Assembly (NCBI GenBank): GCA_021785515.1
Contig: JAJYEX010000008.1
Coordinates: forward strand, 62,001-126,000
Reading direction: 5' to 3'
Source: Pseudomonadota bacterium
GTDB taxonomy: Bacteria > Pseudomonadota > Gammaproteobacteria > Acidiferrobacterales > UBA6901
Length of the DNA: 64,000 nt
The notes under the pieces were generated by a model. The model was given only the letters and a program-made list of their open reading frames with translations. It did no database searches and was not told the DNA's origin. Made by a program: the position numbers and the translations under genes. Each line of letters opens with the position of its first letter. Position 1 is the first letter of the stretch. Below are positions 19,484-50,814 of this stretch, piece after piece.

Positions 19484-19496
19484 AGGAGTCGTTGCA

Positions 19497-20033
19497 ATGA
19501 AAAACAGATCGATCATTCCGCTGCTGGTATTGTGTGCGGTTTCTCTCGCTGCATGCGGCGGTCACGAGGCGGTGAAGCCGAGCAGCAGTGCCGCCGCCGG
19601 CGGGCAGGGAAGTCAGCAGGGCGCCGAGACGTCGGGCGCCGGACAGGCAGGCGGTGCGCAGGGCAGTGCGCTGGGGGGGCAGCAGCAGGCCGCAACGGTT
19701 GTACAGCATACCGTGCACTTTGCCTTCAACAGCAGCCACATCGACGCGACCAATCGCGCTATCGTCGAAGCCAACGCCTCGTATATGAGTGCCAATCCGC
19801 AGGTTACCGTCACCCTGCAGGGAAATACGGACGAACGGGGAACGCAGGAGTACAATCTGGCCCTGGGTGAGCGCCGGGCCCAGGCGGTAAAGCGCATGAT
19901 GGTCGTGCTGGGCGTGGCCGGGAGCCGGATGACGACGATTTCCTTCGGCGCCGAGAGGCCGGTTGCCTTGGGGCATGACCGGGCGGCATGGCGTCTCAAC
20001 CGCCGTGTCGATTTTGCGTACAGCGGCAATTGA
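19497..20033 (+). CDS. pal: Peptidoglycan-associated lipoprotein Pal
   Basis: The protein is 178 residues from ATG 19497, after an AAGGAG ribosome-binding site. It has a lipoprotein signal with lipobox SLAAC (Cys19) and a low-complexity Gly/Ser/Gln linker. The OmpA-like domain carries GNTDERGTQEYNLALGERRA, the peptidoglycan-binding signature. It anchors the outer membrane to the wall. Confidence 0.96.
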   Translation: MKNRSIIPLLVLCAVSLAACGGHEAVKPSSSAAAGGQGSQQGAETSGAGQAGGAQGSALGGQQQAATVVQHTVHFAFNSSHIDATNRAIVEANASYMSANPQVTVTLQGNTDERGTQEYNLALGERRAQAVKRMMVVLGVAGSRMTTISFGAERPVALGHDRAAWRLNRRVDFAYSGN

Positions 20034-20884
20034 TGGGTTCCATGGGAATGCGCCGGACGGGGATTGGTGGCTGGGCGGCGGCGGTGCTGTTCGTAACCGC
20101 CGTGGCACCGACCGCGTTCGCGCAGGACAGTCTGCCGTATTCACGTTCAACGCCGGCTCCGGTGGTGAGCATTCCTCTGAATGGAGGAGGGATGCCGCCC
20201 CCGCAGTCCGGGTTGCGCAGCAGCGTTCTCAATCTTCTGCAACAAGTGGAGAATCTGCAGTCGCAGGTGCGCAAACTCCGGAATCAGGTCGAGATTCAGG
20301 CGCACGCGCTGCAGGTGATGCAGCAGGAGCAACGGAATCTCATTGGAGACCTGAACCGACGCGTCACTGCTCTCGAAACGCGTAGCCAGGCGAGCCCGGC
20401 GCCGGCTGCGGGCGGCGCCTCGACCGGTGCGAATACGAGCACCAGTAGCACCAGTACCAGTGCTGGTGCCAGTACCGCTACGGCGGCCCCGCCTGGCCCC
20501 GGTGAGCTGAAAGCCTACAACGGTGCCTTCGACCTCATCAGGGAAGGTTTCTATGACCGCGCGATCGCGGCCTTCCGCGCTTTCATCGTGAAGTACCCCA
20601 GCTCGTCCCTGGCTGGCAATGCGGAATACTGGATTGCCGAGGGACATTACGTCGTGGGTGACTACCGACGGGCCCTCAAGGAGTACAAGAAAGTGCTGGC
20701 CCTTTATCCGAACAATACCAAGGTGCCAGATGCGCTGCTGAAAGTCGGCTACACGGAATATGAGCTGAAATCCTATGACGCGGCACGCAAGACCCTGACT
20801 AGCGTCGTCAGCCGGTTCCCCAATACCACCGTAGCGACGCTCGCCACCACGCGCCTCGACGAGATGAAGAAGAAGGGCCACTGA
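20033..20884 (+). CDS. cpoB: Cell division coordinator CpoB (YbgF)
   Basis: The protein is 283 residues from ATG 20033, overlapping the pal stop. It has a signal peptide ending PTAFA, an N-terminal trimerising coiled coil (about 60-110), a Ser/Thr/Ala-rich linker and C-terminal TPR repeats (about 150-283). CpoB links Tol-Pal to PBP1B activity during division. It closes the tol-pal operon. Confidence 0.94.
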   Translation: MGSMGMRRTGIGGWAAAVLFVTAVAPTAFAQDSLPYSRSTPAPVVSIPLNGGGMPPPQSGLRSSVLNLLQQVENLQSQVRKLRNQVEIQAHALQVMQQEQRNLIGDLNRRVTALETRSQASPAPAAGGASTGANTSTSSTSTSAGASTATAAPPGPGELKAYNGAFDLIREGFYDRAIAAFRAFIVKYPSSSLAGNAEYWIAEGHYVVGDYRRALKEYKKVLALYPNNTKVPDALLKVGYTEYELKSYDAARKTLTSVVSRFPNTTVATLATTRLDEMKKKGH

Positions 20885-27471: not shown

Positions 27472-28578
27472 ATGTCGACAGCCAAATCAACATCTAGCCT
27501 TGCTGACCTGCTTTTTCCAGGGACAAATGACCAGCAGGATTTTGCAGAGGGGATACTCAGCATTCCGCCGGAGCAGCGGAAACTCCACACAGAGACTTAT
27601 GATTTTTCTGTAGACACTATTGTGGAACGACTCGAGGTCGGTTCGATCTACATTCCTGAATTTCAGCGGCGATACGTTTGGAGTGATGCACAAGCCTCAC
27701 GCCTCGTGGAGTCACTTATCATTCAATGCCCTATCCCAGTTATTTATCTAAATCAGGAACCCGACGAGAGATTGTCAGTGATCGATGGCAACCAGAGGCT
27801 AACGTCGATCAGAAGATTTATTCGGAATGAATTCTCATTGAAGGGCCTAACCGCCTACCCGGAACTTGAAGGGAACAGGTATCACCAGTTGGACCCACGC
27901 TTTCAGCGCCATATTTCTAATCGAACCTTGCGCTGTATCGTCATCCTGAAGGATACGCATCCCCAGGTTAAGTTCGATGTCTTTGAGCGACTAAACACTG
28001 GGGCCGTTAAATTGACGCCGCAAGAACTTAGGCATGGCCTTTATTACGGCGATCTCATAAATCTTGCGACAAGAGTGGCGGCAGATACCAAGTTCGCAAC
28101 TTTGCTCGACATCAAGGAAGACAAGAGAATGAAGGCCGAGGAGTTGATCCTCCGATATTGGGCACTTTCTGAAAACTACTCACTGTATAGAAAGCCGCTG
28201 GCAAATTTTATCAACTCGTTTGCGGAGGCAATGAGGGAAATTTCTAAGGACAAAATGACTCGCCTTACCGAGTCATTCCGGAAGTCGTTAGATCACGTGG
28301 TGGGACTCTTTGGCGATATGGCATTCAAGATCTTTGATGAGCATGGCGTCGTCGAAAGCAAGTTCAACTCTGCGCTATACGATGCGGAGATGCTTGCGGT
28401 CTGGCAGCTTCTGGGCGACAAAAAGCTGAAAAAGATGGGAAAGAAGGAGGCCCAACTCGAATTGGTTAAACTGCTCAAATCCGACGAGGCATTTCGAAAG
28501 TCTATCAGCATAGCGACGAGCGACGAGAACCAGCTAAAAACCCGTGTCGACGCGATGAAAGCGTTGCTCGGGGTTTGA
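27472..28578 (+). CDS. DUF262-domain protein (GmrSD/ParB-like nuclease family)
   Basis: This 368-residue protein has the two DUF262 hallmarks: IPEFQRRYVW at 61-70 and VIDGNQRLTSI at about 103-113. FERLNTGAVKLTPQELRH follows. DUF262 is a ParB/Srx-like NTP-dependent domain found in type IV restriction enzymes (GmrS, BrxU) and other defence proteins. The usual C-terminal DUF1524 HNH nuclease is absent, so the downstream HEPN protein may be the effector. The next gene begins 3 bp after its stop. Confidence 0.85.
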   Translation: MSTAKSTSSLADLLFPGTNDQQDFAEGILSIPPEQRKLHTETYDFSVDTIVERLEVGSIYIPEFQRRYVWSDAQASRLVESLIIQCPIPVIYLNQEPDERLSVIDGNQRLTSIRRFIRNEFSLKGLTAYPELEGNRYHQLDPRFQRHISNRTLRCIVILKDTHPQVKFDVFERLNTGAVKLTPQELRHGLYYGDLINLATRVAADTKFATLLDIKEDKRMKAEELILRYWALSENYSLYRKPLANFINSFAEAMREISKDKMTRLTESFRKSLDHVVGLFGDMAFKIFDEHGVVESKFNSALYDAEMLAVWQLLGDKKLKKMGKKEAQLELVKLLKSDEAFRKSISIATSDENQLKTRVDAMKALLGV

Positions 28579-28580
28579 GC

Positions 28581-29294
28581 ATGCCTTACACGGTTAGTGC
28601 TAGCCGCAAGCAGTTGGAAGAACGGTTAATCGAAATCACCAAGCGGTTGCGGCGTGCGGACAAAAACGGAGTTCCTCCTGAATTGAGGGAGTATGCAATT
28701 GCGGCTGCCATATTTCTATCCCATGCCGAAGTTGAAAACTTTTTCGGCGACATTCTCGCCAGAATTGCGATGGCGTATAGCAATGGCGTGGCGCATTCGT
28801 CTGGCCTTCCGAGTCGCCTCCGGGCCCACTTGGTTGTGGAGAAACTGAACCTGCAAAGCATTGCGGCGAAATTCTCGAACAAGACAGGAGAGCCGGCAAT
28901 TCTCGATGAGGTACAACGTTGGTTCGCTTCGCCGCTCTCTTGTCTCCTGAATGATTCGCAACCCCTTGGTGTGTTTGACGGAAAAGATATTCACGGAGAT
29001 TACGGATATCCGTCAATCAAGAATATCGAACGTGTCCTCCGGCGGGTGGGAATAGGCGATCCAGGGGGGAAGTTGAACGGAACAGCGAAAAGAGACGTAA
29101 TGAGCTTGCTTGAGTCGGTCGGCGACCTGCGAATAGCACTGGCTCATAGCGCGTCGCTTCCAGGGATTAGCTGTTGCGACGTCATCGATAAGTTGTCTGA
29201 TCTGAAAGCCTTTGTGGCGGCTATGGACCGCACACTCTATTTTCACGTTAGAAGCAGTCTTCCAGATTCAGCATGGAAGGCAAATGTATGTTAG
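28581..29294 (+). CDS. HEPN-domain protein (MAE_28990/RiboL-PSP-HEPN-like), putative RNase
   Basis: The protein is 237 residues from ATG 28581 and almost entirely helical. It contains an R-x4-H motif, Arg184-IALA-His189, the catalytic signature of HEPN ribonucleases. Residue patterns such as AAAIFLSHAEVENFFGDIL match the HEPN type commonly paired with DUF262. HEPN toxins cut RNA in abortive infection. The tight coupling suggests a two-gene sensor-effector pair. The function has not been shown. Confidence 0.7.
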   Translation: MPYTVSASRKQLEERLIEITKRLRRADKNGVPPELREYAIAAAIFLSHAEVENFFGDILARIAMAYSNGVAHSSGLPSRLRAHLVVEKLNLQSIAAKFSNKTGEPAILDEVQRWFASPLSCLLNDSQPLGVFDGKDIHGDYGYPSIKNIERVLRRVGIGDPGGKLNGTAKRDVMSLLESVGDLRIALAHSASLPGISCCDVIDKLSDLKAFVAAMDRTLYFHVRSSLPDSAWKANVC

Positions 29295-36456: not shown

Positions 36457-37629
36457 ATGAAGCCACGGATTTTTCTAGTCTACATTCCTCCGGGAAATGC
36501 GGAGGCAATGGTTCATTACGAAGAAACCATTAAGCAGAAGGTTTCTGCAGAACGTATCTATCGATTTGTCTCTCAAAGTGTCCGCACACAGCTTGATCGC
36601 ATCTTCTCAGGTAAGCAGATTGCTGTATGGGGATCGCGTGATTCTGATGCCAACCGCAGCAAGTTTGAGCGAATGAGGCCAGGAGATGAGATCCTGATTG
36701 TCGAAGGCCAAATCATCAAGCTGCTTGGTAAAGTAGCCGCCACCACGACTAACTCCGACCTTTCAAATGAACTGTGGCAGTCGCTACGTGTAGGCCAGGC
36801 AGCGGAAGGTTGGAATCTGATCTACTTCATTGCGAATCCGGTAGAAATAAACCTGCCATTCACAGAATTCTGCCATCTCATGGGTTACGGCGAGAATTAT
36901 CAATTACGCGGTTTCACTACTGTTAGCGACGATCGACTGGAAACCTTTTATAAGTGCTACGACGATCTCTATTCGATCTTGATGCAGCTAAAACAGAATC
37001 ACCCCGTATACCAACGCCCGCAAAAGGATTTGTTCGGGGAAGAAAGCAAAGGCGTCGAGGAGCCGGAAGTCACGCCAATTGTGGATACGCCAGATCAAGT
37101 CGCGCCTGCGGAAGAGATTTCTGACCACCTGCGTATGCAGTGGATGCTTTTAAATCTTGGCCGAAAGGCCGGCAGCAAAGTCTGGATTCCCGCAAACGAC
37201 CAAGGCCGAATACGCGATAGATTTCAATACAGCGAGTTCGAGCGCGATTTCGCCGCTGGTATCGACGCCCAGACACGTTACGTCGAAAACATCGATGTCG
37301 TCTGGAAGGAGGAGTTCCGCATTGATGCGGCATTCGAGATCGAAAATTCCACTAGCATCTATTCTGGTCTCCTGCGTTTCTCGGATCTTACGTTGGTCGC
37401 CCCCAACACCATTTATCCGCTGTTCATTGTTGCACCGCGAGAAAAGCGCAATCGTCTTGTTGAGCAATTGCGACGTCCAACATTTCAGAAGCTACGCTTA
37501 GATCGCAAGGTACGCTATTTACCGTACGAAGCCGTGGAAGAGATCGATCAATTCTTTGGCGATGTCGCGCAAGGATTAACCGTGGATGTCATTGTCGGAC
37601 GGTCGGAGGAGATTAATTTGCACCACTAA
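36457..37629 (+). CDS. EVE-like/PD-(D/E)XK-like protein of the restriction operon
   Basis: This 390-residue protein has two parts. Residues about 50-155 (VWGSRDSDANRSKFERMRPGDEILI, WNLIYFIANPVEINLPF) resemble EVE/PUA-like modified-base readers. Residues about 225-345 look like a restriction-nuclease fold, with Asp280 in NIDVVW and Glu294/Glu296 in AAFEIENSTSIYSGLLRFSDL, then IVAPREKRNRLVEQL. It is the first of five same-strand genes. I infer that it senses modified or foreign DNA and may cut it. Confidence 0.65.
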   Translation: MKPRIFLVYIPPGNAEAMVHYEETIKQKVSAERIYRFVSQSVRTQLDRIFSGKQIAVWGSRDSDANRSKFERMRPGDEILIVEGQIIKLLGKVAATTTNSDLSNELWQSLRVGQAAEGWNLIYFIANPVEINLPFTEFCHLMGYGENYQLRGFTTVSDDRLETFYKCYDDLYSILMQLKQNHPVYQRPQKDLFGEESKGVEEPEVTPIVDTPDQVAPAEEISDHLRMQWMLLNLGRKAGSKVWIPANDQGRIRDRFQYSEFERDFAAGIDAQTRYVENIDVVWKEEFRIDAAFEIENSTSIYSGLLRFSDLTLVAPNTIYPLFIVAPREKRNRLVEQLRRPTFQKLRLDRKVRYLPYEAVEEIDQFFGDVAQGLTVDVIVGRSEEINLHH

Positions 37630-37659
37630 TGTGGATTATTCAAGTTAAGGGAGAAAACT

Positions 37660-37878
37660 GTGGCTAACGATGTTGAATTTTCCATTCCCAGGCGAAAGCT
37701 AGGCCGTTCGGACATTGAGTTTTTGGTCAAGCGTAATGGCGCAGTCCTGGGCACTTTGAAAGTTTCAAACGGATCATTGGTGTGGTTTCCAAGAAAGACC
37801 ACCGTGGGCTACCGCATGACTTGGCACAAATTCGACAGCGTCATGAAGGACTTTTCTCAGGGTGAAGAGCGCAGATAA
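37660..37878 (+). CDS. Small beta-rich protein between nuclease and Z1 genes
   Basis: The protein is 72 residues and starts at GTG 37660. The sequence (SDIEFLVKRNGAVLGTLKVSNGSLVWFPRK, then YRMTWHKFDSVMKDF) is a compact strand-rich domain with a C-terminal helix. I know no established name for it. Its stop abuts the TTG start of the Z1 gene, so it is part of the operon. Confidence 0.6.
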   Translation: MANDVEFSIPRRKLGRSDIEFLVKRNGAVLGTLKVSNGSLVWFPRKTTVGYRMTWHKFDSVMKDFSQGEERR

Positions 37879-40086
37879 TTGACCCAACCTCAGACGGCCA
37901 CCATGCAAAGTCTCAAACTAAATGGATCCTTCTTCCCGTCCTTCACTGCAGATGCATCGCGTTATTCCACAGACGACAAGAATTGCATTCAGCGTACTGT
38001 GGAGCGACTTCTGTCCGTCCAAACCAGTGCCGAGAAGCCTGGCATGCTACTTGGCAAGATTCAGTCTGGCAAGACGAAGACATTTCTAGGAATCGTCGCA
38101 TTAGCGTTCGATAATAGCTTTGATATCGCTGTCGTCCTAACAAAGGGAACGAAGGCGCTAACGAAACAGACTTTACAGCGCATCAACAGCGAATTTGCGC
38201 CGTTTCAATCGAAGGACATGATGCAGATCTACGACATCATGACCTTACCGTCCGGGTTAACACCTTATGAGCTGAGCCAAAAGATCGTATTCGTTGCCAA
38301 GAAGCAGACGGACAATATGGATCGACTTGCGGCGGTGTTCCAGGAGACATACCCTCAGTTGGCTGGGAAACGCACCTTAATCATTGATGACGAGGCCGAC
38401 TATGCAAGTATCGGCTATCGCAATGATCGAAAAGAAGGTAAGGTAGTAGCCAACGTTACGGCTCGGCAGATTGACGGGCTGCGACAAACTCTAGCGTCGT
38501 CCTCATTTCTTCAAGTCACCGCAACGCCGTATTCGCTTTATCTCCAACCGGACAACGTCGTAGCGAGCGGCCTGCGATTCAGGCCTGTTCGCCCTTCATT
38601 TACAGAACTCGTGCCTGTCCACAAAGACTATATTGGCAGTGATTACTATTTTCAGCAAAGCCAGGAAGACAATTCTCCAGCGAAATATGTGTATGAGCCC
38701 GTCACGCTTGATGAGCTTTCCATTCTGCGGCAGCAAGACCGTCGCCGTTTCAAGACCGAGGATTGCCTGACCAGCGATGCGATTGATTCGCTCCGTAATG
38801 CTGTCTGCAATTTCATTGTCGGCGGATGCATCCGCCGACTGCAAGACCAGCGCCTGGGAAAGCCCCTCAAGAAATTCAGCTTTCTCGTCCATACCGAAGC
38901 GGGAAAATCGGCGCATGCCTGGCAAGAACAGGTAGTGCAAGCGTTGCGCGACCATTTGACAGATGCCGTGAAGAGAGACCCGGATCGTCTGCGCCGGCTT
39001 CTTTCGGATGCCTACCAGGATCTTTCTGCGTCAATTCGAGTGATGGATCATTACCTTCCGCCTGAGGAGGAGGTGCTTGGGGAAGCCTTCGTGGCGCTAG
39101 GCGAAGGGTGGTTAATGATTACGAAAGTTAATTCTGAAAAGCAGGTAGAAGAACTACTAGATACGGAGGGACAGCTCCGCCTACGTACGCCACTAAATAT
39201 TTTCATCGGCGGGCAAATTCTCGATCGTGGCGTGACAATCGCGAACCTCATTGGGTTCTTCTACGGTCGCCGTCCACAGGTTTACCAACAGGATACCGTT
39301 CTACAACATTCCCGAATGTTTGGTTTCCGACCGATTGAAGACTTGACTGTAACTCGTTTCTATACCGAGCCAACTATCTACGACGCAATGCGCCGTATGC
39401 ACGAAAGTGACGTTGCGCTACGGCAGGCCATTGCGAAGAACCCCGATCAGCCTATTGTCTTTATCCAACGTGATGATACAGGTCGAGTAATTCCGTGCAG
39501 CCCAAACAAAATTCTCGTATCGCGCACTACGACGCTGCGACCATTCAAACGCGTGCTCCCGGTCGGCTTTCAAACAGACTACAAGACGCGCGTGCATCCT
39601 GTGGTCGACGAAATTGACAAATTGTTGGAGGATCTCAGACCTCAGAGCGGATTTGACGAACCCTTCGAGATCTCCGTTTCGGTCGCTCTGGATGTCTTGC
39701 GAAGGATCGAGCCAACTCTTCTCATGGAAAAGAAGGAGGGCTACACCTTTGATTGGGAAGCGGCACGCGCAGCGTTGCGGTACCTTGCCAACGCGTCCGA
39801 CGACTCGACAAACCACGGAAAGGTGATCTGTTTGGTACGCCGAGATCGCAACCTCAGCCGTCAAGTATCATCCGGTAGTCACGCAGTGTATTCGGATGCA
39901 CCAGATACGACTCGCACCGAGGGCGAGGTAGCGCGGCGGGTAGCGCTGGAAACACCAGTACTCATGCTCATTCGGCAGAATGGTCATGAGGAACAGGGCT
40001 GGCGGGGCACACCATTCTATTGGCCGGTTATTATGGCGCAGGGAAACCTGCAGACCGCTATTTTTGCGCATGAAACAATGGATTAG
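37879..40086 (+). CDS. Z1-domain superfamily 2 helicase-like ATPase
   Basis: The protein has 735 residues from TTG 37879; ATG 37903 is an alternative start. It has Walker A LLGKIQSGKT (59-66), Walker B IIDDEADYAS (about 168-177), motif III-like VTATPYS (213-219), then IFIGGQILDRGVTI and LQHSRMFGFR. This combination defines Z1-domain proteins, which are found in defence loci with methylases, PD-(D/E)XK nucleases and sometimes MORC/MutL-like ATPases. No MutL-like gene is present here. It probably translocates or remodels DNA for the restriction complex. Confidence 0.85.
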   Translation: MTQPQTATMQSLKLNGSFFPSFTADASRYSTDDKNCIQRTVERLLSVQTSAEKPGMLLGKIQSGKTKTFLGIVALAFDNSFDIAVVLTKGTKALTKQTLQRINSEFAPFQSKDMMQIYDIMTLPSGLTPYELSQKIVFVAKKQTDNMDRLAAVFQETYPQLAGKRTLIIDDEADYASIGYRNDRKEGKVVANVTARQIDGLRQTLASSSFLQVTATPYSLYLQPDNVVASGLRFRPVRPSFTELVPVHKDYIGSDYYFQQSQEDNSPAKYVYEPVTLDELSILRQQDRRRFKTEDCLTSDAIDSLRNAVCNFIVGGCIRRLQDQRLGKPLKKFSFLVHTEAGKSAHAWQEQVVQALRDHLTDAVKRDPDRLRRLLSDAYQDLSASIRVMDHYLPPEEEVLGEAFVALGEGWLMITKVNSEKQVEELLDTEGQLRLRTPLNIFIGGQILDRGVTIANLIGFFYGRRPQVYQQDTVLQHSRMFGFRPIEDLTVTRFYTEPTIYDAMRRMHESDVALRQAIAKNPDQPIVFIQRDDTGRVIPCSPNKILVSRTTTLRPFKRVLPVGFQTDYKTRVHPVVDEIDKLLEDLRPQSGFDEPFEISVSVALDVLRRIEPTLLMEKKEGYTFDWEAARAALRYLANASDDSTNHGKVICLVRRDRNLSRQVSSGSHAVYSDAPDTTRTEGEVARRVALETPVLMLIRQNGHEEQGWRGTPFYWPVIMAQGNLQTAIFAHETMD

Positions 40087-40094
40087 GAGTACCG

Positions 40095-43000
40095 ATGGGC
40101 AGGCAAAAGAAAACCACAAAGAACCGAGCCAACAGACCTTCCAGTCGTAAGGTGACCGACACGGTGACCAGTCCCATGGGCGACGGCGAGCATTTTTCCC
40201 TAGAAACACAGCAAGCCCCAGCTGGGGTACCACGCAAGTCGGCCGTACGCGCCGCCAAGGCTCCATTGAGAGCAGGAAAGAAAAGTGACCACTCCGAGGT
40301 ATTAAGCTACCGTCACTCAGACAAGCGCACGAACAACCCAGAGGTAGGCATGGTCAAGCCGGAGAATGACCCGGACGACCATGAGGAGCGCTGGTGTTAT
40401 GACCCACATATAGATCCGGCGTTGCAGTTCGATTTCGGGCGAGCACAGGTGGAAAAGCTGATTGACGAGGCACTGGCCAGTGGCAGTCAGGACGCGATGC
40501 GCACAGCGTTGGAGGAGCTCAAGCGTTACTCCGCCCCCTATCTCAACTGGACGGGCAAGGCCGAGCGTACCACCTTCGACGTCGAGACGGTAAGCCTCCA
40601 TGTCCACGAACGCATCGATCCGGCGAGCATTCTATCGGCGGTGCGCAAGAAGCTGAACGAGGGCACACGTAAGAGCGAGTTCATGCAGCCCGATCTCTTC
40701 GCGGCACCGTTCGAGAACCTGCCTCTGCGTGACGCCATCGATTTCTACAAGCACGAGCGCGGCTGGGCAAACCGGCTGATCGCCGGCGATTCGCTGTTAG
40801 TGATGAACTCGCTGTTGCAAAAAGAGAGCATGGCCGGGCAGGTGCAGATGATCTACGTCGACCCGCCCTACGGCATCAAGTATGGCTCCAACTTTCAGCC
40901 TTTCGTCAATAAGCGCGATGTGAAAGACCGCAAGGACGAGGACTTGACCCAGGAACCGGAGATGATCAAGGCTTTCCGCGACACCTGGGAGCTGGGCATC
41001 CATTCCTACCTTACCTACCTGCGCGACCGGCTGCTGCTGGCGAAGGAATTGCTGCACGGATCGGGGAGCGTGTTTGTGCAGATTTCGGATGAGAATCTGC
41101 ATCATGTGCGCGAGTTGCTTGACGAAGTATTTGGTCCGGACAATTCAATCGCTCTTATAGCGTTCGTTAAAACGCAAGCTCTCGGGGCAGCGTTTTTGCC
41201 TGGAGCCTATGACTATCTGCTGTGGTACGCCAAGGATAAGACAAAAACAAAATACAGACGGCTACTTACGGATAAGCTTGAGGCGGCTGACATTTCTACG
41301 TTCGGGTGGTTGAGTCAGCCCGGCGGCTACGCACGCCGCCTAAGAGGAAGTGAGCTCGACCATCAGGACATAATTCCGAACCGCTTTCGCGCGGGAGATC
41401 TTTCACGACAGGGTGCGTCAGAAATCGGGACTTTTGAATTTGAGTACCAAGGTGAGAAGTACTGGCCATCATCTGGACGTCGATGGGCTAGTAATCCAGA
41501 TGGAATGCGTAGATTAAGTCGTTCAAATCGAATTCAGCCGCTTGGGAAGGTCCTTTCGTATCGGCTCTTATTTAAGGATTTTCCTGTCGTTCCGCTCGAT
41601 AACGGGTGGCATGACACCTATATCGGTACCTTTACCCAGAAAACATACGTTGTTCAAACTGGTGAACTCGCCATTCAAAGATGCATGTTGATGACCACCG
41701 ATTCCGGTGACTTGGTGCTGGACCCGACCTGCGGATCTGGCACCACCGCCTTCGTCGCCGAGAAGTGGGGCCGGCGCTGGATCACCTGCGACACCTCGCG
41801 CGTGTCGGTGACGCTCGCCAAGCAGCGGCTGATGACCGCGAGCTACGACTACTACGAGCTCAAGTATCCCCAGGAAGGTTTGAAGAGTGGCTTCATCTAC
41901 AAGACGGTGCCGCACGTCACGCTCAAGTCCATCGCCAACAACCCCGAGATTGACGAAATCTACGAACGGATGCATCCAGCCATCGAGGCGGCGCTGGCCG
42001 AGCTGAACAAGGCGGCGAAGCAGAAACTCAAGGAATGGGAAGTACCGTTCGAGTTTCCGGAAAACTGGCCAGCAGCAGCGCGCAAGACCTTCGATGCCTT
42101 CCAGGCTGCGCGCCAGGCCATGCAGAAGAAGATGGACGACTCCATCGCTGCGCATGCGGACCAGGAAACGCTTTACGACCAGCCGGCGGTTTCCAAGAAT
42201 AAGTTGCGCATCACTGGGCCGTTTACTGTGGAGGCGGTGCCGTTCCCGACGGTGCTGGCGCTGGACGAGGGAAAGCCACCGCAGGAGGCAGACGTGGCTA
42301 TCGCCCGCTCTGGAGAATCGGCGCGCCAGCATGCATGGCGCGACGAGCTGCTAAAAACTGGCATCCGCGGTAAGGGCGGGCAAATGCTGACGTTCGCCGA
42401 ACTCGAAACCCTGCCAGATTCGCCGCACCTGCACGTGAGCGGCCATCTCGATTCCGGCGAGCGGGTGGTGGTGAGCTTCGGTCCTGAGCACGCGGCGCTG
42501 GAGCAGCGGCAGGTGGCGCTCGCGCTGAACGAGGCTGAGAAGCTTAGGCCTGCGCCGAAGTTCATTATTTTCGCCGCCTTCGAGTTCGACCCGGAGGCGG
42601 CCAAGGACATCGACGAAACCAAATGGCCAGGCGTGACTCTGCTCAAGGCCAAGATGAACGCTGACCTCCTTAGTGACGACCTCAAGAAGGGCCGCGCCAG
42701 CAATCAGAGCTTCTGGCTCATGGGCCAGCCGGACTTGGAGGTGCACCCGCAGAACGACGGCCGCTATGTGGTGGAAGTGCATGGCTTCGACTACTTCGAC
42801 ACCACCAAGGGCGAGCTGGTCTCCGGCGGCAAGGGCAAGATCGCCATGTGGCTGCTCGACACCGACTACGACGAGCGCTCATTGTTCCCGCGCCAGGTGT
42901 TCTTCCCCATGGCCGGCAAGGGTGAGGGTTGGGAGAAACTCAAGAAGGACATCCGTGCGGAAATGAATGATGCGCTGCTGGAGAAATTCCACGGTACCAA

Positions 43001-43097
43001 GTCGCTGCCGTTTGAGGCTGGAGGCAATAAGAAGGTGGCGGTAAAGATTGTGGATGATCGAGGGATTGAGTCCCTGAAGATCATTTCGCTGCCCTGA
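40095..43097 (+). CDS. Type III-like beta-class DNA methyltransferase, extended
   Basis: This 1000-residue protein has DPPY at 256-259 before the SAM-binding motif DPTCGSGTT at 543. That is the beta-class order of type III Mod enzymes, which methylate adenine N6 or cytosine N4. The 40-residue-rich basic N-terminus and a roughly 430-residue C-terminal extension make it much longer than usual Mod proteins (600-700). The extension ends with GFDYFDTTKGELVSGGKGKIAMWLLDTDY. It sits directly before the Res-like gene. Confidence 0.85.
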   Translation: MGRQKKTTKNRANRPSSRKVTDTVTSPMGDGEHFSLETQQAPAGVPRKSAVRAAKAPLRAGKKSDHSEVLSYRHSDKRTNNPEVGMVKPENDPDDHEERWCYDPHIDPALQFDFGRAQVEKLIDEALASGSQDAMRTALEELKRYSAPYLNWTGKAERTTFDVETVSLHVHERIDPASILSAVRKKLNEGTRKSEFMQPDLFAAPFENLPLRDAIDFYKHERGWANRLIAGDSLLVMNSLLQKESMAGQVQMIYVDPPYGIKYGSNFQPFVNKRDVKDRKDEDLTQEPEMIKAFRDTWELGIHSYLTYLRDRLLLAKELLHGSGSVFVQISDENLHHVRELLDEVFGPDNSIALIAFVKTQALGAAFLPGAYDYLLWYAKDKTKTKYRRLLTDKLEAADISTFGWLSQPGGYARRLRGSELDHQDIIPNRFRAGDLSRQGASEIGTFEFEYQGEKYWPSSGRRWASNPDGMRRLSRSNRIQPLGKVLSYRLLFKDFPVVPLDNGWHDTYIGTFTQKTYVVQTGELAIQRCMLMTTDSGDLVLDPTCGSGTTAFVAEKWGRRWITCDTSRVSVTLAKQRLMTASYDYYELKYPQEGLKSGFIYKTVPHVTLKSIANNPEIDEIYERMHPAIEAALAELNKAAKQKLKEWEVPFEFPENWPAAARKTFDAFQAARQAMQKKMDDSIAAHADQETLYDQPAVSKNKLRITGPFTVEAVPFPTVLALDEGKPPQEADVAIARSGESARQHAWRDELLKTGIRGKGGQMLTFAELETLPDSPHLHVSGHLDSGERVVVSFGPEHAALEQRQVALALNEAEKLRPAPKFIIFAAFEFDPEAAKDIDETKWPGVTLLKAKMNADLLSDDLKKGRASNQSFWLMGQPDLEVHPQNDGRYVVEVHGFDYFDTTKGELVSGGKGKIAMWLLDTDYDERSLFPRQVFFPMAGKGEGWEKLKKDIRAEMNDALLEKFHGTKSLPFEAGGNKKVAVKIVDDRGIESLKIISLP

Positions 43098-43107
43098 GGT
43101 GCTGCCA

Positions 43108-45915
43108 ATGACGGCACCAAAGTCACTAATCATCAACTCACCGTATGAAGTGCCCACCCGGCGTTGGGAGCAGGCCCGTGATGGATCGCTCAGCATCTTG
43201 CCCGAGCGACGTTCGGCTGGTTATGAAATCTTCGACATTCGAAACAACACACGACGCACAGAGCCGCTGACGCTTGTGAATGAGATACGCCAGCGCCTGG
43301 AAGAGTGGCGTAAGGCAGAGTACCCAGGCATTACTTCGGTAACGCGAAACCTTCTAGAACACTGGCACGACAGAACCCCAGGTGTTCGCCAATATCCTTT
43401 CTACTTCTGTCAGCTGGAGGCCATCGAGACCCTCATCTGGTCGGTGGAGGCCCCGGAACCGCATAAGCAAGGCATCAGCATTCCGGGAGACGGTGGTCCG
43501 TGGGAGCGGCTCTGTAGCAAGATGGCCACTGGTTCGGGCAAGACTACGGTGATGGCCATGATCATCACGTGGCAGGTGCTGAATGCGATCACTTATCCGA
43601 AACGAAACAAGGATTTCTCGCGAGCCATTTTTATCGTTGCACCGGGACTAACCGTAAAAGACCGCTTGCGTGTTCTGTACCCGGGCGAACCGGATAATTT
43701 TTACGATGCCTTTGGGATATGCCCGTCGGAGTCGCTACGCCAGAAGCTTAACCAGATGGAATTGCTGATCGAAAACTGGCACACCCTCATGCCGCTGAAA
43801 GAGAAGGAGCATTCTGTTGTTAAAAAAGGGAAAGAAAGCGATGAGGCTTTCACGCGACGAGTGCTTGGCAAGCTCGCCGCCTATAAGGACATCGCCGTCA
43901 TCAATGACGAGGCCCATCACGCCTATCGCAAGCCGGCGGAGATTAAGATTAGCAAGAAGCAGGCGGAAGAACTCGGCCTCGATCTGGAAGAGGCCACTCG
44001 TTGGATCGAAGGGCTGGATCGAATTCACAAGACGCGCCGTGTTCAGCGCTGCTTTGATCTTTCCGCGACGCCATTTGCTCCGACTGGCAAGGCCAGTACC
44101 GAAGAGGGACTATTCGACTGGATCGTGTCGGATTTCGGTCTGAACGACGCTATTGAGTCCGGGTTGGTCAAGACCCCGCGCGTCGTGGTGCGGGACGACG
44201 CGTTGCCCAGCGCGGCGACAATGCGACCCAAGCTCTATCACATCTACCGCGAGGCGGAGGTGGCAGAAGATCTTAACCGACGTGGGGCTGAACCGCACGA
44301 GTCGCTACCTCGGCTGGTGCAAGATGCGTACACACTGCTCGGGGCGGATTGGCGCGCCGCCTTCCTGGACTGGCGTGAGAAGGGACATTTGTCACCACCC
44401 GTTATGCTGACCGTCTGCAATCGGACCGAGACGGCAGCTCGCATTGAGAACTACTTCAATAAGGGCGATGCCCACTGGCCTGAGATGCATGCCCCGGCCT
44501 ACACCTTACGAGTCGATTCCAAGGTACTGGAAAAGGCAGAGGTGGGCGAAGCTGCAGCGGCTGATAAGGCCTACGAAGCCCGCTTGGCCGAAATTATCGA
44601 GGCAGCAAAGATCCCAGAAACCCGCAAAGAGCGGCTGCGCGTCATGAAAAAAGAGGAGGTGCTGCGCGAATTGGTGGATAACGTAGGCAAGCGCGATGCC
44701 GCAGGGCAGGACCTGCAGAATGTGATTTCGGTCGCGATGCTTTCAGAAGGATGGGACGCAAAGAACGTGACCCATATCATGGGTCTCAGGGCGTTTACCT
44801 CCCAACTCCTGTGTGAGCAGGTTATTGGTCGTGGCCTGCGTCGAGTTTCGTACGAGACCGATGAAAACGGGTTATTCGTACCGGAATATGTAAATGTTTT
44901 TGGTGTGCCCCTCTCGATTTTTCAAGATGTTACTTCAGGTGGCGAACCGCCACCGCCTCCCAAGCCCAGCACACAAATCGAATCCCTGGCGGATCGCAAC
45001 GATCTGGAGATCAAGTGGCCGAACGTCATACGTATCGACTCAGTCGTACGACCCGTGCTGACAGTGGATTGGGGAAAAGTCGAGCCGCTGACATTGAATC
45101 CGGCAGATACACCTATCAGCGCTGAGATCGCACCGGCCCTAGGAGGCGCGGCGAATTGGGACCAGATACATGTAATCGACCTCGAAACGCTGCCGGATGA
45201 GTTTCGTTTGCAGCGGCTGACCTTCCAGGCGGCGCGAAAGGCCTATGCAGGTATGCAGGGCAAGTTTAAAGGGGCACGGGAATATCTGATTTTCCAGCTA
45301 ATCAAGTTGGTCGAACACTTCATTGATTCAGATATGCTGGTGATCCCGACCACTTTTCATCGGGATCCGTTACGCAAACGCATCTTGATGTCACTAAATA
45401 TCGATCTCATCGTTCAGCACCTCCAGCGTCATATTCAGAAACAGAATATTGAACGGGTCGAGCCTATATTTGACGAGGAAAATCCCATCGGATCCACCCG
45501 TTACATGCGCACTTGGTACACCACGAAGCCATGTCTTCCGACGAGAAGATCGCAAATCAGTCATATGATTGCGGATAGCGCGTGGGAACAGTACGCAGCA
45601 AATGTATTCGATTCAGCCAAAAGTATATCCGTTTCTGCGTACGCCAAGAACGAACACCTGGGATTTCAGGTGTATTACCTGTGGAATGGCGCTCGGCGGC
45701 GTTTTATTCCAGATTTCTTGATCCGACTTAAGAACGGAAAGATGCTAGTACTGGAAATCAAGGGTCAGGACTCGGAGCAGAACCGCGCAAAACGAGCGGC
45801 TTTGGATATGTGGGTAAGAGGCATAAACGAAAAAGGCGGGTTTGGATTGTGGTGCTGGGACGTTGCCTACCAGCCAGCGCAGATTCAGGACATTCTTGCC
45901 AAGCACAACGATTGA
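43108..45915 (+). CDS. Res-like DEAD/DEAH helicase with C-terminal nuclease (BPTD_3080-like)
   Basis: The protein is 935 residues from ATG 43108 (GAGGTG 7 bases upstream). Helicase motifs are ATGSGKT at 140-146, NDEAHH (Asp267), DLSATPF (Asp317) and QVIGRGLRRVSYE. The C-terminus has a PD-(D/E)XK site: Asp869 (FIPDFLI) and Glu883-x-Lys885 (LEIKG). It resembles type III Res subunits and helicase-nuclease restriction proteins. Together with the Mod-like gene 10 bp upstream it should form a restriction-modification pair. Confidence 0.87.
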   Translation: MTAPKSLIINSPYEVPTRRWEQARDGSLSILPERRSAGYEIFDIRNNTRRTEPLTLVNEIRQRLEEWRKAEYPGITSVTRNLLEHWHDRTPGVRQYPFYFCQLEAIETLIWSVEAPEPHKQGISIPGDGGPWERLCSKMATGSGKTTVMAMIITWQVLNAITYPKRNKDFSRAIFIVAPGLTVKDRLRVLYPGEPDNFYDAFGICPSESLRQKLNQMELLIENWHTLMPLKEKEHSVVKKGKESDEAFTRRVLGKLAAYKDIAVINDEAHHAYRKPAEIKISKKQAEELGLDLEEATRWIEGLDRIHKTRRVQRCFDLSATPFAPTGKASTEEGLFDWIVSDFGLNDAIESGLVKTPRVVVRDDALPSAATMRPKLYHIYREAEVAEDLNRRGAEPHESLPRLVQDAYTLLGADWRAAFLDWREKGHLSPPVMLTVCNRTETAARIENYFNKGDAHWPEMHAPAYTLRVDSKVLEKAEVGEAAAADKAYEARLAEIIEAAKIPETRKERLRVMKKEEVLRELVDNVGKRDAAGQDLQNVISVAMLSEGWDAKNVTHIMGLRAFTSQLLCEQVIGRGLRRVSYETDENGLFVPEYVNVFGVPLSIFQDVTSGGEPPPPPKPSTQIESLADRNDLEIKWPNVIRIDSVVRPVLTVDWGKVEPLTLNPADTPISAEIAPALGGAANWDQIHVIDLETLPDEFRLQRLTFQAARKAYAGMQGKFKGAREYLIFQLIKLVEHFIDSDMLVIPTTFHRDPLRKRILMSLNIDLIVQHLQRHIQKQNIERVEPIFDEENPIGSTRYMRTWYTTKPCLPTRRSQISHMIADSAWEQYAANVFDSAKSISVSAYAKNEHLGFQVYYLWNGARRRFIPDFLIRLKNGKMLVLEIKGQDSEQNRAKRAALDMWVRGINEKGGFGLWCWDVAYQPAQIQDILAKHND

Positions 45916-46361: not shown

Positions 46362-46652
46362 ATGAAGTTGGTCGGGCGCGACAAGCTGGGCGAGTTCGTG
46401 CAGAAGCACGCGGACGCCCGCCGGTGGGTCGAGGCTTGGCTGGCTGAAGTTGAGCGCACGATCTGGCGAACGCCGCATGACATAAAGCAACACCATACAA
46501 CGGCGAGTTTTCTCGCTCACAACATCGTAATTTTCAATGTGCGCGGCAATAACTACCGATTAGAGGTCCAGGTTGCCTATAAGACCTCGACAGTTGTAAT
46601 TCGGTGGATTGGAACGCACGAGGAATACACGAAACGCTTTTCAGGGCGCTGA
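46362..46652 (+). CDS. HigB-family toxin (type II TA)
   Basis: This 96-residue protein begins MKLVGRDKLGEFVQKHADARRW and contains TPHDIKQHHTTASFLAHNIVIFNVRGNNYRLEV and IRWIGTHEEYTKRF. This is the HigB/RelE-type mRNA interferase pattern with C-terminal histidine and tyrosine. HigB cuts mRNA on ribosomes. The antitoxin gene starts one base after its stop. Confidence 0.88.
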   Translation: MKLVGRDKLGEFVQKHADARRWVEAWLAEVERTIWRTPHDIKQHHTTASFLAHNIVIFNVRGNNYRLEVQVAYKTSTVVIRWIGTHEEYTKRFSGR

Positions 46653-46653
46653 C

Positions 46654-47865
46654 ATGGCGAATGAATTGAATGTGAAGGTAGTGAAGAGCGATAGTCAGTA
46701 CCGCACGTATCTGGAGGAGATCGAACGTCTTGCGGCGTCTGATCCGGATCCCGAGGCGCCTGAAGGGGCGCGGCTCGAACTGCTGGCGAAGCTTGTGGAA
46801 GACTATGAAAAGGTGCGCTATGTATTCCACCGCCCAGATCCTGTTGAGGCTATTCAGTTCCGAATGGAGGAGCAGGGATTGCGCCAAAAGGACATCGCCG
46901 ATCTTCTGGGCGGAAAGAATCGCGCGTCCGAGATTCTCGCCCGCAAGCGCCCGTTGACGCTGCCCATGATCCGCGCGCTTCACGATCGCTTGGGCATCCC
47001 AGCCGATCTGCTCATCCGCGAGACGGAGACAATGCCTGGCAGATCCGAGGATCAGGAGATTGACCCCGAGGACTTGCCGTACGAGACTCTTGTTCGTCGT
47101 GGCTGGATCGCCCGGGATGCGACACCCAGTGAGGTATTGAAGCGCTATCTCGCGCCGGTCGGCAGTCCCGTTTTTCTGCGCCATACCCTGACTTTCGGCA
47201 TTACACCGAAGACAAATCGAACGCGTCTTTGGCTTTGGCTTGCCCGGGTGCGCGAGCTTGCCGATGCCGAAATTTCCAAACTTGGAAAATTCTCACGTGA
47301 TACGATCGACATGGATTTGCTGAGGTACGTGGCGCGGCTGAGCTGGATGGATAAAGGACCGCGGCTGGCGATCGACTTTCTCGCCGAACGTGGCATCGCG
47401 GTGGTCATCGAACCAAAACTACCAGGAACACGCGTCGACGGCGCGGCTCTGATCGGATCCAACGGTGTCCCGATTGTCGCACTGACTCTGCAACATGATC
47501 GACTCGATAATTTCTGGTTCACGCTGCTGCACGAGTTAGTGCACGTGTGGAAGCATTTGGACGCTCGGACTTTTCGGGCAATCATCGACGAGGAAGTCGA
47601 GCAGGCGAAAGATCCCGAGGTGAAAGAACGGGAAGCAAACGAGATGGCTAACGAAGCGCTCTTGCCACGCGCGGTCTGGCGTCGTAGCGATACGTTCCGC
47701 AACCCGACTTCCACGAATATCAAGACACTTGCCGCGGAACAGCAAATCCATCCCGCAATCGTGGCTGGGCGAGTAAGGTTCGAACGGCACAATTATGCGT
47801 TGTTTTCCGCATTGGTCGGGCATCGGCAAGCGCGTTCGCTTTTTCCGGAAGTTCATTGGAGCTGA
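46654..47865 (+). CDS. HigA-like antitoxin fused to an ImmA/IrrE metallopeptidase domain
   Basis: The protein has 403 residues from ATG 46654. The N-terminal part (about 1-120) is HigA-like with a helix-turn-helix (GLRQKDIADLLGGKNRASEILARKRPLT). The C-terminal part carries a zinc-protease HExxH at 293-297 (HELVH) in LLHELVHVWKH, plus EREANEMANEALLP, as in ImmA/IrrE. Such fusions may respond to a signal by cleaving a regulator. The next gene may begin at its end, so these genes likely form an operon. Confidence 0.85.
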   Translation: MANELNVKVVKSDSQYRTYLEEIERLAASDPDPEAPEGARLELLAKLVEDYEKVRYVFHRPDPVEAIQFRMEEQGLRQKDIADLLGGKNRASEILARKRPLTLPMIRALHDRLGIPADLLIRETETMPGRSEDQEIDPEDLPYETLVRRGWIARDATPSEVLKRYLAPVGSPVFLRHTLTFGITPKTNRTRLWLWLARVRELADAEISKLGKFSRDTIDMDLLRYVARLSWMDKGPRLAIDFLAERGIAVVIEPKLPGTRVDGAALIGSNGVPIVALTLQHDRLDNFWFTLLHELVHVWKHLDARTFRAIIDEEVEQAKDPEVKEREANEMANEALLPRAVWRRSDTFRNPTSTNIKTLAAEQQIHPAIVAGRVRFERHNYALFSALVGHRQARSLFPEVHWS

Positions 47866-47870
47866 ACCCG

Positions 47871-49022
47871 ATGCGTCGGTCCGCCTGCTACTTTCCGATC
47901 GTGCCCAACAAGATAGGCGAGATCAAGGCGGTCGGTCATCTCTCGCCGCGTACCCGTGCACGAACAAGAATTGTCCTTGAAATTGATCGTCCCGGCGATG
48001 GAGACGCCGCTAAATTGGAAGAACATATAGCCGGAGCTGCTCGACAGATTAGCGAAGCGTGGGGAACCACGTATCCGTTGCTGGTGGATATGCCGGAGTA
48101 TGGACCTGATCATCGCGCGACAAATGGTTCGACGCTAATCGAGCATCCACACGTCTGTCTGCGTCAACTGGGAATGCTCGCCGTGCCGGTCGCTGGGCCT
48201 GTCTCAGCAGGCGGACCGGAAATTCTGGAAACGGTTCGTGATATAGCTCGCCATGAGCGCCGCGGCGCGGCGCTTCGCATACCATTTTTGGAGCTCAGCC
48301 ATGTGGATATCCTCCAGCGAGAACTAACGAGTTCAATGCGGATCCTCGCGCATGAACCCGCGGAGATTGATCTCCTGCTTGATCTCGAGGCGGTGCTCCA
48401 TATTCCGGAGCATCAGCGCAGCACGGCGCATTTGACGGCGGTCGTCCATGAAGCGCTCGCTCTGGTGCGGCAAATTGGGGAATTTCGCAACGTGATCTTG
48501 TGCGGCTCAAGTGTCCCTGAGAATGTTGGAAAACAATACAATGGCGCTCCATACCGCGGGCGGCGTATCGAGCTTGACGTGTGGCGGACGCTGCTGCCCG
48601 ATGCCATCATGCCAGTGTCGTTTTCAGACAACGGCATCACTCCGTCACGTGGCCCGGACCCGCGCGGATTCGGCCCCGCGCCAGCCAGAATTAGGCTCTC
48701 GACCCCGGACGAGATCGTGTTTTATCGAGCAAATCAGAAAAGGTATGTGGACTTATGTAAACGCGCCCTCTCCAGCACCGACTTCGACGACCGGATCCCG
48801 GCATGGGGGGCAACCAAGCTGCGTGAGTGCGCTCGCGGACACATCGCGCCCAGCTCGCCGACGGAATGGGTTGCTCGCGATACTAACCTTCATATTGAGA
48901 CCACTGTCGCGGAAGTCCAGCGGCGTCTCCATGCGACAGGTCGGATCCGGGATTATCGATTCCCTGAAGAAGAAAAGTTTGCCTGGCTGCAGCACAACTT
49001 TCTCGAAGATGAGCAAGTCTAA
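47871..49022 (+). CDS. Beta-family protein (phage T4 Beta-like, PF14350)
   Basis: The protein is 383 residues from ATG 47871, five bases after the HigA-ImmA stop; a TTG at 47856 would overlap it. The pattern CYFPIVPNKIGEIKAVGHL, then LLVDMPEYG, LIEHPHVCLRQLGMLAVPVAGP and a C-terminal SPTEWVARDTNLH matches beta-family proteins with a TIM-barrel-like layout. The biochemical role is unknown. Linkage to the TA pair suggests the effector or sensor of a defence system. Confidence 0.65.
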   Translation: MRRSACYFPIVPNKIGEIKAVGHLSPRTRARTRIVLEIDRPGDGDAAKLEEHIAGAARQISEAWGTTYPLLVDMPEYGPDHRATNGSTLIEHPHVCLRQLGMLAVPVAGPVSAGGPEILETVRDIARHERRGAALRIPFLELSHVDILQRELTSSMRILAHEPAEIDLLLDLEAVLHIPEHQRSTAHLTAVVHEALALVRQIGEFRNVILCGSSVPENVGKQYNGAPYRGRRIELDVWRTLLPDAIMPVSFSDNGITPSRGPDPRGFGPAPARIRLSTPDEIVFYRANQKRYVDLCKRALSSTDFDDRIPAWGATKLRECARGHIAPSSPTEWVARDTNLHIETTVAEVQRRLHATGRIRDYRFPEEEKFAWLQHNFLEDEQV

Positions 49023-49212: not shown

Positions 49213-50814
49213 ATGGCTAATGGATTAGATCTACCGACGCAGGGCCTGACTGTCTATCTGCTCAAGGAGAATTTTACAAACCCCGAGACCATAATTCAGG
49301 CGCAACAGCTGCCTGACGTATACCCTCTAAAGTCGGGTCGAAAACACATTGGCGATCTGTATGTCCAGCGTGGTCGATCGAAACCACCTCGCTGGGCGCA
49401 ATTCTTTGCAGGGTATGTAGACATCCATAAACTTGGTCACGTCACCTCCGCGGCGGCTGTGCTATTGGTACCAGCGCGAGACAGAATTTTTGCCGTGACA
49501 TTCGGTCATGGTCGATATCTTCTAAACCCGGATGCTTGGGAGGAACGTTTCGGGCTTCGGGTTGCGCTCAATTCGATTGGGGAAGGCAACGTGCGTAGTA
49601 TCGACAAACGCACATTCGATGCCATCGCGCGACACACTCGTGAGCAGGCCAGCCGCGAGGCGACGGCCAGAGACTTCGACATCGACATCGAACAAGATTT
49701 GCTCCGAGCCATCACCGGCACACCGACAGACTCGGAGTTAGGGCGTAGGATGTCAGGTATGGACGCCCTGCGTATATCGGTTCCCACCGATCTTGCGTCA
49801 CTTTCCGATCTATTATCTTCTTATTACGACAAGTATTTAGATGATTCATACAAAACTAATTTTCCATGGGTCGATCATATTTCCGAAATCGCGAACCGTA
49901 CGCTCATTGACGAGTTGGACGCGGTGATAATCAAACGCATTGTCGCGGGCGAAACCGACCGAATCTGGATGGCTGTTCCCGACATTACGCCGTGGGAGCG
50001 CGTGGATGGGTTTCGTTGGCCGGGGCGGAAATCGCCGCGCTTACATGACGTCACCCTCCAGGGGTTTTTGGAGTCTCTGAACGATGTCAATTCGCTTACC
50101 AAAGCTGTCTTGACGCAGCGAAAGGTAGAATGTATCGACCTCGACGGGGTAATGCTAGAAAATTGGTCAGCGTATCGTTGTTTGTATGCGGAGCTTGATC
50201 GGGATGGCAACTCGTACTTGCTCAGCGGAGGGAAATGGTACTGTCTGACGCGGGACTTCGTGGACGAAGTGAACGAGGCCTATCGTCAAATACCGAATTA
50301 TCCGCATGATCTACCTGAGTTTAATGATGCGAGCGAGACGGCTTATAACAAACGGGTTGCAGAAAGCAATCCCGCTCGTTATGCACTCATGGACGCAAAG
50401 CTAATTCACCACGGTGGCGTTAATGACAAGATTGAATTTTGCGATCTGCTTATCGATCGGCAGGATATCCTGCACATCAAGCAATACGGGGCATCAAGCA
50501 AGCTGAGCCACTTGTTTTCGCAGGGGCTTGTATCGGGTGAATTATTTCTGGCTGACGTGGAATTCCGGCGCCAAGTTAATGTCTTGTTGCCCGCGGACCG
50601 CAAACTGGTCGACCCTGAAAGGAGGCCTGACTCGGCGGAATATAAAATCATCTTTGCCGTGATCAGCGCTGTGCCAGGAAACCTGATCCTGCCGTTCTTC
50701 TCAAGACTAAACCTTAAACACGCGGCTAGGCGACTGAGGGGCTACGGCTATCGGGTGGCGGTCACCAAGATTGAAGTAAATGAGACATATGCTAAAACAA
50801 AACGGTATGACTAG
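49213..50814 (+). CDS. DUF6119/TIGR04141-family protein
   Basis: This 533-residue protein opens LTVYLLKENFTNPETIIQ, and later has FAVTFGHGRYLLNPDAWEERFGLRVALNSI and HIKQYGASSKLSHLFSQGLVSGELFL. These are features of the sporadically distributed DUF6119 family found in mobile and defence loci. No enzyme motif is obvious. It follows the beta-family gene after 190 bp in the same direction and is the last gene of the island. Confidence 0.75.
   Translation: MANGLDLPTQGLTVYLLKENFTNPETIIQAQQLPDVYPLKSGRKHIGDLYVQRGRSKPPRWAQFFAGYVDIHKLGHVTSAAAVLLVPARDRIFAVTFGHGRYLLNPDAWEERFGLRVALNSIGEGNVRSIDKRTFDAIARHTREQASREATARDFDIDIEQDLLRAITGTPTDSELGRRMSGMDALRISVPTDLASLSDLLSSYYDKYLDDSYKTNFPWVDHISEIANRTLIDELDAVIIKRIVAGETDRIWMAVPDITPWERVDGFRWPGRKSPRLHDVTLQGFLESLNDVNSLTKAVLTQRKVECIDLDGVMLENWSAYRCLYAELDRDGNSYLLSGGKWYCLTRDFVDEVNEAYRQIPNYPHDLPEFNDASETAYNKRVAESNPARYALMDAKLIHHGGVNDKIEFCDLLIDRQDILHIKQYGASSKLSHLFSQGLVSGELFLADVEFRRQVNVLLPADRKLVDPERRPDSAEYKIIFAVISAVPGNLILPFFSRLNLKHAARRLRGYGYRVAVTKIEVNETYAKTKRYD

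Follow-up and report, generated by a model that had tools for sequence, protein, structure and literature searches.

The five genes of the locus

The window considered here, a stretch of 64,000 nucleotides from a gammaproteobacterial contig (JAJYEX010000008.1), carries at positions 36457-45915 five reading frames that share the forward strand and are separated, as listed, by gaps of 30, 0, 8, and 1 bases. Gene 1 (36457-37629) encodes a 390-residue protein that appears to be a PD-(D/E)XK-type nuclease with an McrB-like N-terminal domain, gene 2 (37660-37878) a 72-residue protein that could be assigned to no family and is an inconstant neighbor of Z1 genes, gene 3 (37879-40086) a DEAD-Z1 ATPase of 735 residues, gene 4 (40095-43097) a long, type III-like Mod methyltransferase of 1000 residues, and gene 5 (43099-45915) a Res-like helicase-nuclease of the BPTD_3080 family, of 938 residues, or 935 from an ATG three codons in. 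Genes 1, 3, 4, and 5 are not chance frames, because their products match profiles of Pfam, NCBIfam, or PADLOC families. A first-pass annotation, made from the letters of the DNA, had described the same gene order, which is confirmed; the genes are tightly packed, and the motifs of the Z1, Mod, and Res proteins are intact. It had also suggested that the five genes may be one hybrid anti-phage system. Most likely, the stretch is instead a piece of a defense island in which a restriction pair, a separate nuclease, and a roaming ATP-driven motor would lie together without forming one machine.

Judged by their sequences, genes 4 and 5 are a type III-like restriction pair of the BPTD_3080 family, which is common on plasmids without Z1. 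The gene 4 product matches Pfam N6_N4_Mtase (5.2e-27) and, over nearly its full length (residues 134-997), the PADLOC profile MTase_III PDLC03632 (3.3e-172); its DPPY and GSGTTA motifs are intact, and solved structures that match it include the Mod protein 6k0w (5.7e-16) and EcoP15I Mod (4.5e-11). The gene 5 product reaches 1148 bits with NCBIfam NF046055 (BPTD_3080 family restriction endonuclease; cutoff, 800), matches PADLOC REase_III (5.5e-10), and has intact GSGKT, DEAH, SATP, GRGLRR, PDF, and EIKG motifs; phmmer found no match for it among solved structures at E 0.01. The Mod gene directly adjoins that of the Res superfamily 2 (SF2) helicase-nuclease, which is the arrangement of type III restriction-modification systems. 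Plasmid searches retrieved Res in 41 records and Mod in 40, and the 40 Res records listed had no overlap with the 32 Z1 records; the comparison is a limited one, since the Z1 proteins matched on plasmids share just 22-30% identity with the query and, as far as they were placed in the tree, do not belong to the clade described below. A literature search for BPTD_3080 found nothing.

The gene 3 product matches Pfam Z1 (9.5e-23) and PADLOC Helicase_II (1.2e-50), and its GKIQSGKT, DDEAD, TATPY, and QHSRMFG motifs are intact. Translation probably starts at position 37903 (ATG), which is also where four of the five relatives in the alignment start, the fifth (from locus L016) being a trimmed sequence. 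The structure model of the protein (predicted local distance difference test, pLDDT, 78.7; predicted TM-score, pTM, 0.73) reads as an SF2 motor, and Foldseek retrieved with it general SF2 motors (RIG-I, EcoR124I HsdR) at low TM-scores as well as viral helicases. No solved structure matched the Z1 profile at 0.01, and no nuclease domain was detected in the protein by Pfam. In the systems CglI and NgoAVII, a DEAD-Z1 subunit is paired with a separate nuclease subunit (PMC4267653); together with this nuclease, the Z1-related subunit shows fast ATP hydrolysis when the DNA carries unmethylated sites, and it is proposed to translocate along DNA (PMC4267653, PMC5737866). The SF2-motor model, the lack of a Pfam nuclease domain, and the related CglI/NgoAVII subunit are the reasons why the Z1 protein is predicted to be a companion motor.

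Residues 223-363 of the gene 1 product match PADLOC REase_II PDLC03534 (1.7e-11), and the AFEIE/AFEVE block of this restriction-endonuclease-like domain is conserved in four aligned proteins. The protein had been labeled EVE-like, a label that no profile confirms: no Pfam family matched up to E 0.1, and the N-terminus matches a single McrB-like protein, the AAA protein of an Archaeoglobus provirus (26% identity over 136 residues). In that provirus, the AAA gene is followed by a PD-(D/E)XK gene, as in McrBC-like type IV systems. A single-sequence structure model of gene 1 was unusable (pLDDT 32.5), and solved structures gave no match up to E 10. No relative was found in viral contigs, and phage records yielded one partial match. 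The 185 genomes examined from the class yielded one close full-length relative (G156, 69% identity) and two partial ones; in G156, an HNH gene lies nearby and the other four genes are not alongside. Z1 matches occur in five of the 185 genomes, G156 not among them. Conversely, gene 1 was found in none of eight Z1-bearing genomes, two of which have a distant Z1 only; such a negative carries little weight where no genome is positive, though the query does recover the window's own gene. Gene 1 probably encodes an independent nuclease, predicted to be modification-dependent.

Gene 2 has no significant match in Pfam, NCBIfam, or PADLOC, its PADLOC match at E 0.021 being at chance level. A relative interrupted by a stop codon follows the Z1 gene in locus L017. 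Relatives occur without Z1 in L038 and L033, and apart from the other four genes in genome G125 and, close to the gene for a large methyltransferase, on a Gordonia plasmid. It may be a small partner of Z1, though not a constant one. Viral contigs gave two 21-residue matches, and the one inspected (L053) falls inside the long frame of a phage protein and was judged spurious.

Relatives of the Z1 gene and their neighbors

A scan of an 84,980-genome collection with Z1 patterns, which were short, so that the counts are lower bounds, yielded at least six close relatives of 68-79% identity. Z1, Mod, and Res follow each other in the window's order in two of the six, L016 from Nitrospira and L019 from a gammaproteobacterial metagenome-assembled genome, and they occur in divergent orientation on two viral contigs (L046, L048). 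Z1 stands without Mod/Res in L014, L018, and, up to the contig limit, L017, and Res was found in two of the eight Z1-bearing genomes. Gene 1 lies beside none of the six close relatives (the loci L015 and L017 being short), and no locus with all five genes was found elsewhere. Sequence comparison thus supports the pairing of Z1 with an extended Mod and a Res-like nuclease, which the first-pass annotation had pointed out and which recurs without a MORC/MutL ATPase; the five-gene unit is unsupported, the Mod/Res pair and the first three genes having been found to move independently, an outcome that this annotation had itself named as refuting. Nor is there support for a single system with two ATPases and two nuclease sites, genes 1, 2, and 3 and the gene 4-5 pair each being found apart. 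The only close Z1 recovered at E 1e-30 from 398 genomes of the window's phylum was the window's own, and a DNA-level search of E. coli genomes found none; viral contigs hold further relatives of 35-47% identity. The viral Z1 proteins of L046, L049, and L050 have an extra N-terminal segment that looks helix-turn-helix-like in the alignment. In L016, a small frame that reads as PIN-like and an Mrr-type restriction gene (5.5e-18) come just after Z1-Mod-Res (18583-20146).

FastTree, run on 46 Z1 proteins, placed the window gene in an 18-member group (support 1.0) that joins the PLD-linked CglI/NgoAVII type at 0.74, and IQ-TREE recovered from 28 proteins a group of 21 (bootstrap 100), supports being counted from unrooted splits. 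The latter tree says little about the sister group because it holds only two Z1 proteins outside the clade and the CglI type, so that the sister relationship rests on the FastTree value. By these phylogenies, the window Z1 and the CglI/NgoAVII motors fall into separate clades. The other Z1 groups are associated with a PLD nuclease and a C5 methyltransferase, with MORC/MutL and DUF4420, mostly together with a C5 methyltransferase, or with a small protein and a C5 methyltransferase, often with Vsr.

The partners of the window's clade vary. Mod-Res pairs accompany Z1 in the window, L016, L019, L046, and L048, where the contig end cuts Res; complete type I sets (HsdM-HsdS-HsdR) in L049 and L086; type II sets of a C5 methyltransferase, a restriction endonuclease (REase), and Vsr in L050 and L109; and a bacteriophage exclusion (BREX) operon, BrxC-PglXI-PglZ-BrxA, in L094. 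A C5 methyltransferase with no nuclease identified beside it is the partner in L051 and its near copy L052, and Mom (PF25680, 7.4e-53) that on the phage contig L091. A DNA-modifying gene lies nearby in 12 of the 15 informative loci (the window, L016, L018, L019, L046, L048, L049, L050, L051, L086, L091, L094, L098, L099, and L109) and in 8 of the 12 loci whose flanks reach 5 kb or more on each side. L015, L017, L047, and L055 were omitted from the 15 because their flanks are short or the contig ends; L052 was left out as a near copy, and so was L108, a 92% copy of L016 that ends with its contig in a Mod fragment. L014 was omitted as ambiguous, since the distance is 6.6 kb to a methyltransferase and 4.9 kb to a HerA-like gene, and an insertion-element-like stretch lies between; it is included in the count of 12, scored as having no modifier. 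L108 and the type II locus L109 were the two new clade members in 295 genomes of another phylum.

Some details of these loci deserve mention. The complete type I sets of L049 and L086 led to rejection of the idea that Z1 substitutes for a lost HsdR. In L091 (9461-12734), the Z1 gene lies about 370 bases ahead of the Mom DNA-modification gene. In L094 (2-13843), PDC-M59A and PDC-M59B, which read as RhuM- and Fic-like, are found inside the BREX operon and Z1 comes after BrxA, followed by the genes for an SprT-like protein and for a protein with a weak, below-cutoff TIR match.

Partners have been exchanged, since the histories of Z1 and of Mod/Res conflict. Between the window and L016, Z1 is 68% identical, Mod 37%, and Res 33%. 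The window's pair is nearer to that of L048 (Mod 53%; Res 50% over a 228-residue fragment), and the L016 pair to that of L046 (49% and 55%). In Z1, by comparison, L046 and L048 reach no more than 41-46% identity with the window and L016. Two pairs of sister Z1 proteins, each with support 100, have different partners: L049 (type I) and L050 (type II), 73.5% identical, and L086 (type I) and L094 (BREX). The converse arrangement is seen in L112 (8446-13391), where a type II set of the L050/L109 kind (C5 methyltransferase 66%, REase 66%, and Vsr 64% identical to L050) is found with a Z1 from a different group, which shares 33% identity with the L050 protein over 487 residues and has the small partner of its group alongside.

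In the window, the five genes lie within an island-like stretch that extends from a tRNA-Lys gene (22612) to an ISL3 transposase gene (59037), at 22612-60362, and that includes integrase-core and IS66 transposase genes, AbiEi (35366), and a PDC-S05-like gene (31912). Directly downstream of Res, all three PADLOC parts of PD-Lambda-2 are present (46362-49022), namely the HigB-like part A (5.6e-42), part B with helix-turn-helix and M78 domains (8.5e-134), and part C, a Beta protein (9.5e-37); a DUF6119 protein gene follows (49213-50814). Upstream, at 27472-29294, the gene for an NsnA-like GmrSD_N protein (2.8e-83) is followed by one with a weak, below-cutoff HEPN_RiboL-PSP match, the two making a candidate defense pair.

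Interpretation

The reading that we favor, and that we hold to be somewhat nearer to right than to wrong, is that of a piece of a defense island in which Mod/Res forms the core and Z1 is a mobile, nuclease-less companion motor of modification-based defense, gene 1 being separate. From their motifs and families, Mod would mark the host's own sites, and Res, powered by ATP, would cleave unmarked DNA with its C-terminal nuclease. Z1 would work alongside whichever modification system it has been acquired by, most likely as a second ATP-driven translocase or remodeler acting on unmarked DNA. A bolder version, which is doubtful, holds that the whole clade is an add-on to DNA modification, in need of a marking neighbor (Mod, HsdM, C5 methyltransferase, PglX, or Mom) and of no particular nuclease, so that ATP-driven movement itself would exclude unmarked DNA. 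Its boldest point, the need for a modifier and not a nuclease as neighbor, is drawn mainly from L051 and L091.

Several observations weigh against a link between Z1 and modification, and some of them lend credit to plain clustering, in which independent defense genes would sit side by side in an island and Z1 would have an unrelated defense role of its own. The island around the genes is rich, with PD-Lambda-2, AbiEi, the NsnA-like gene, and transposases, and no DNA-modifying gene was found near Z1 in three informative loci, L018, L098, which has AbiH beside Z1 instead, and L099, methyltransferases having been sought in the last two with the reference set and by reading of frames. L098 and L099 are moreover both of the new clade matches from 395 genomes of one phylum, a sample drawn blind to context, so that the viral set may overstate the association. 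L015, L017, L047, and L055 show no modifier within their short flanks, and L046, L049, and L051 are informative only since the partner happened to sit on their single long side. The motor role, too, is proposed by analogy with the N subunits of CglI/NgoAVII, whose partner nuclease is absent here. On the other side, Z1-Mod-Res stands in equal order in two distant hosts, and the partners are nearly always DNA modifiers, not a random mix of defense genes. A control with viral loci of another defense gene, AbiEi, retrieved in the same manner, points in the same direction: at a distance of up to 5 kb, a methyltransferase from the reference set is found in 6 of 10 loci of the viral Z1 clade and in 0 of 22 of those of AbiEi (Fisher p 2.3e-4), and for up to 10 kb the figures are 7 of 10 and 2 of 22 (p 1.0e-3), although the references, which do not include Mom, were taken from Z1 loci and favor the Z1 side, and flank lengths differ. 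The control supports the association of Z1 with modifiers, short of proof, and plain clustering is considered unlikely, if by no means far-fetched.

Z1 might also help modification or self-protection, as a DNA-clearing remodeler or in restriction alleviation, and not be a restriction effector at all. This would fit with a recurrent partner that is a modifier and not a nuclease, and with L051 and L091, where a modifier and Z1 occur with no nuclease identified beside them; since related N subunits act in restriction (PMC4267653) and many Mod/Res pairs do without Z1, it seems rather improbable. Slightly less probable still is that genes 1-3 form a CglI-like ATP-dependent enzyme, a two-part type IV system with Z1 as the motor and gene 1 as nuclease and reader, to which Mod/Res would be unrelated. 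The order and spacing of these genes (gaps of 30 and 0 bases) suit it, and the combination of DEAD-Z1 with a separate nuclease subunit in CglI and NgoAVII provides a precedent (PMC4267653). Yet the 69% relative of gene 1 occurs without Z1, gene 1 is found in 0/8 Z1-bearing genomes, and close relatives of Z1 keep Mod/Res without gene 1; the idea of Z1 as a CglI-type motor serving gene 1 was rejected on the ground that gene 1 is not conserved with Z1. That all five genes form one hybrid anti-phage system has very little to recommend it beyond their shared strand and tight spacing, as no second five-gene locus exists among those found and genes 1, 2, and 3 and the gene 4-5 pair each occur separately.

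On the bolder version, a modifier and Z1 would constitute a minimal restriction unit free of nuclease, attachable to types I, II, and III and to BREX. One motor family serving type I-III and BREX systems would suggest a possible shared step after recognition of unmodified DNA that is not bound to any one nuclease. The mechanism of phage exclusion by BREX is called unknown in PMC7261183, and a common add-on motor could offer a handle on it. For annotators, it would serve as a warning that a Z1 gene beside Mod/Res looks accessory and that such clusters are not to be named one new system.

Comparison with known systems

PADLOC 2.0.0, Pfam, NCBIfam, and the accessible literature, to which the search was confined, yielded no named system composed of these five genes. 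A general link between Z1 and restriction systems is already known (PMC5379612, PMC7159879). Literature searches on Z1 with restriction, BREX, or anti-phage defense, which mostly did not extend to subscription journals, found no description of this clade or its pairings, and a 2026 survey of BREX (PMC12839542) makes no mention of the Z1 domain, CglI, NgoAVII, or DEAD-Z1.

CglI and NgoAVII share, in their N or H subunit, the DEAD-Z1 architecture of gene 3, which matches Helicase_II, a profile read here as that of CglI-like subunits, and theirs is the nearest other Z1 group in the FastTree phylogeny. They differ in their partners, a PLD nuclease and a C5 methyltransferase, neither of which is among the window's five genes, the methyltransferase there being of the N6_N4 type. 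The window Z1 is only 22-26% identical to the PLD-linked proteins of L003, L008, L009, L011, and L013, its clade has varying partners, and no matches to three PLD partners were found in L014-L019, L046-L052, and L055.

The clusters of MORC/MutL, Z1, DUF4420, and a C5 methyltransferase, presumably those of the earlier literature, and the MZA systems resemble the locus in that a Z1 ATPase lies inside a defense cluster. They differ in that no MORC/MutL or DUF4420 family was found among the window genes scanned, and the Z1 proteins linked to MORC/MutL fall outside the window's clade. Membership in MZA was tried and rejected, the MzaC score being 59 bits against a cutoff of 1500.

Gene 1 can be compared with the EVE-PD(D/E)XK type IV enzymes (Bell et al., 2020; PMC7641849), in which a reader domain precedes a PD-(D/E)XK-type domain. 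This is the architecture proposed for gene 1, and it is already on record; the difference lies in the EVE domain, shown by no profile in gene 1.

With the BPTD_3080 branch of type III restriction-modification, the locus has in common the adjacency of Mod and Res, their intact motifs, an NF046055 score above the cutoff, and a nearly full-length MTase_III match; it differs in that Mod is about 1000 residues long, Res lacks a phmmer match among solved structures at E 0.01, and an extra Z1 gene stands ahead of the pair. Extra genes are also known from BREX and type I operons, where, as here, a gene has been added in or beside a modification-based system. What would set the Z1 clade apart from them is that a single gene family appears to serve type I, type II, type III, and BREX systems alike.

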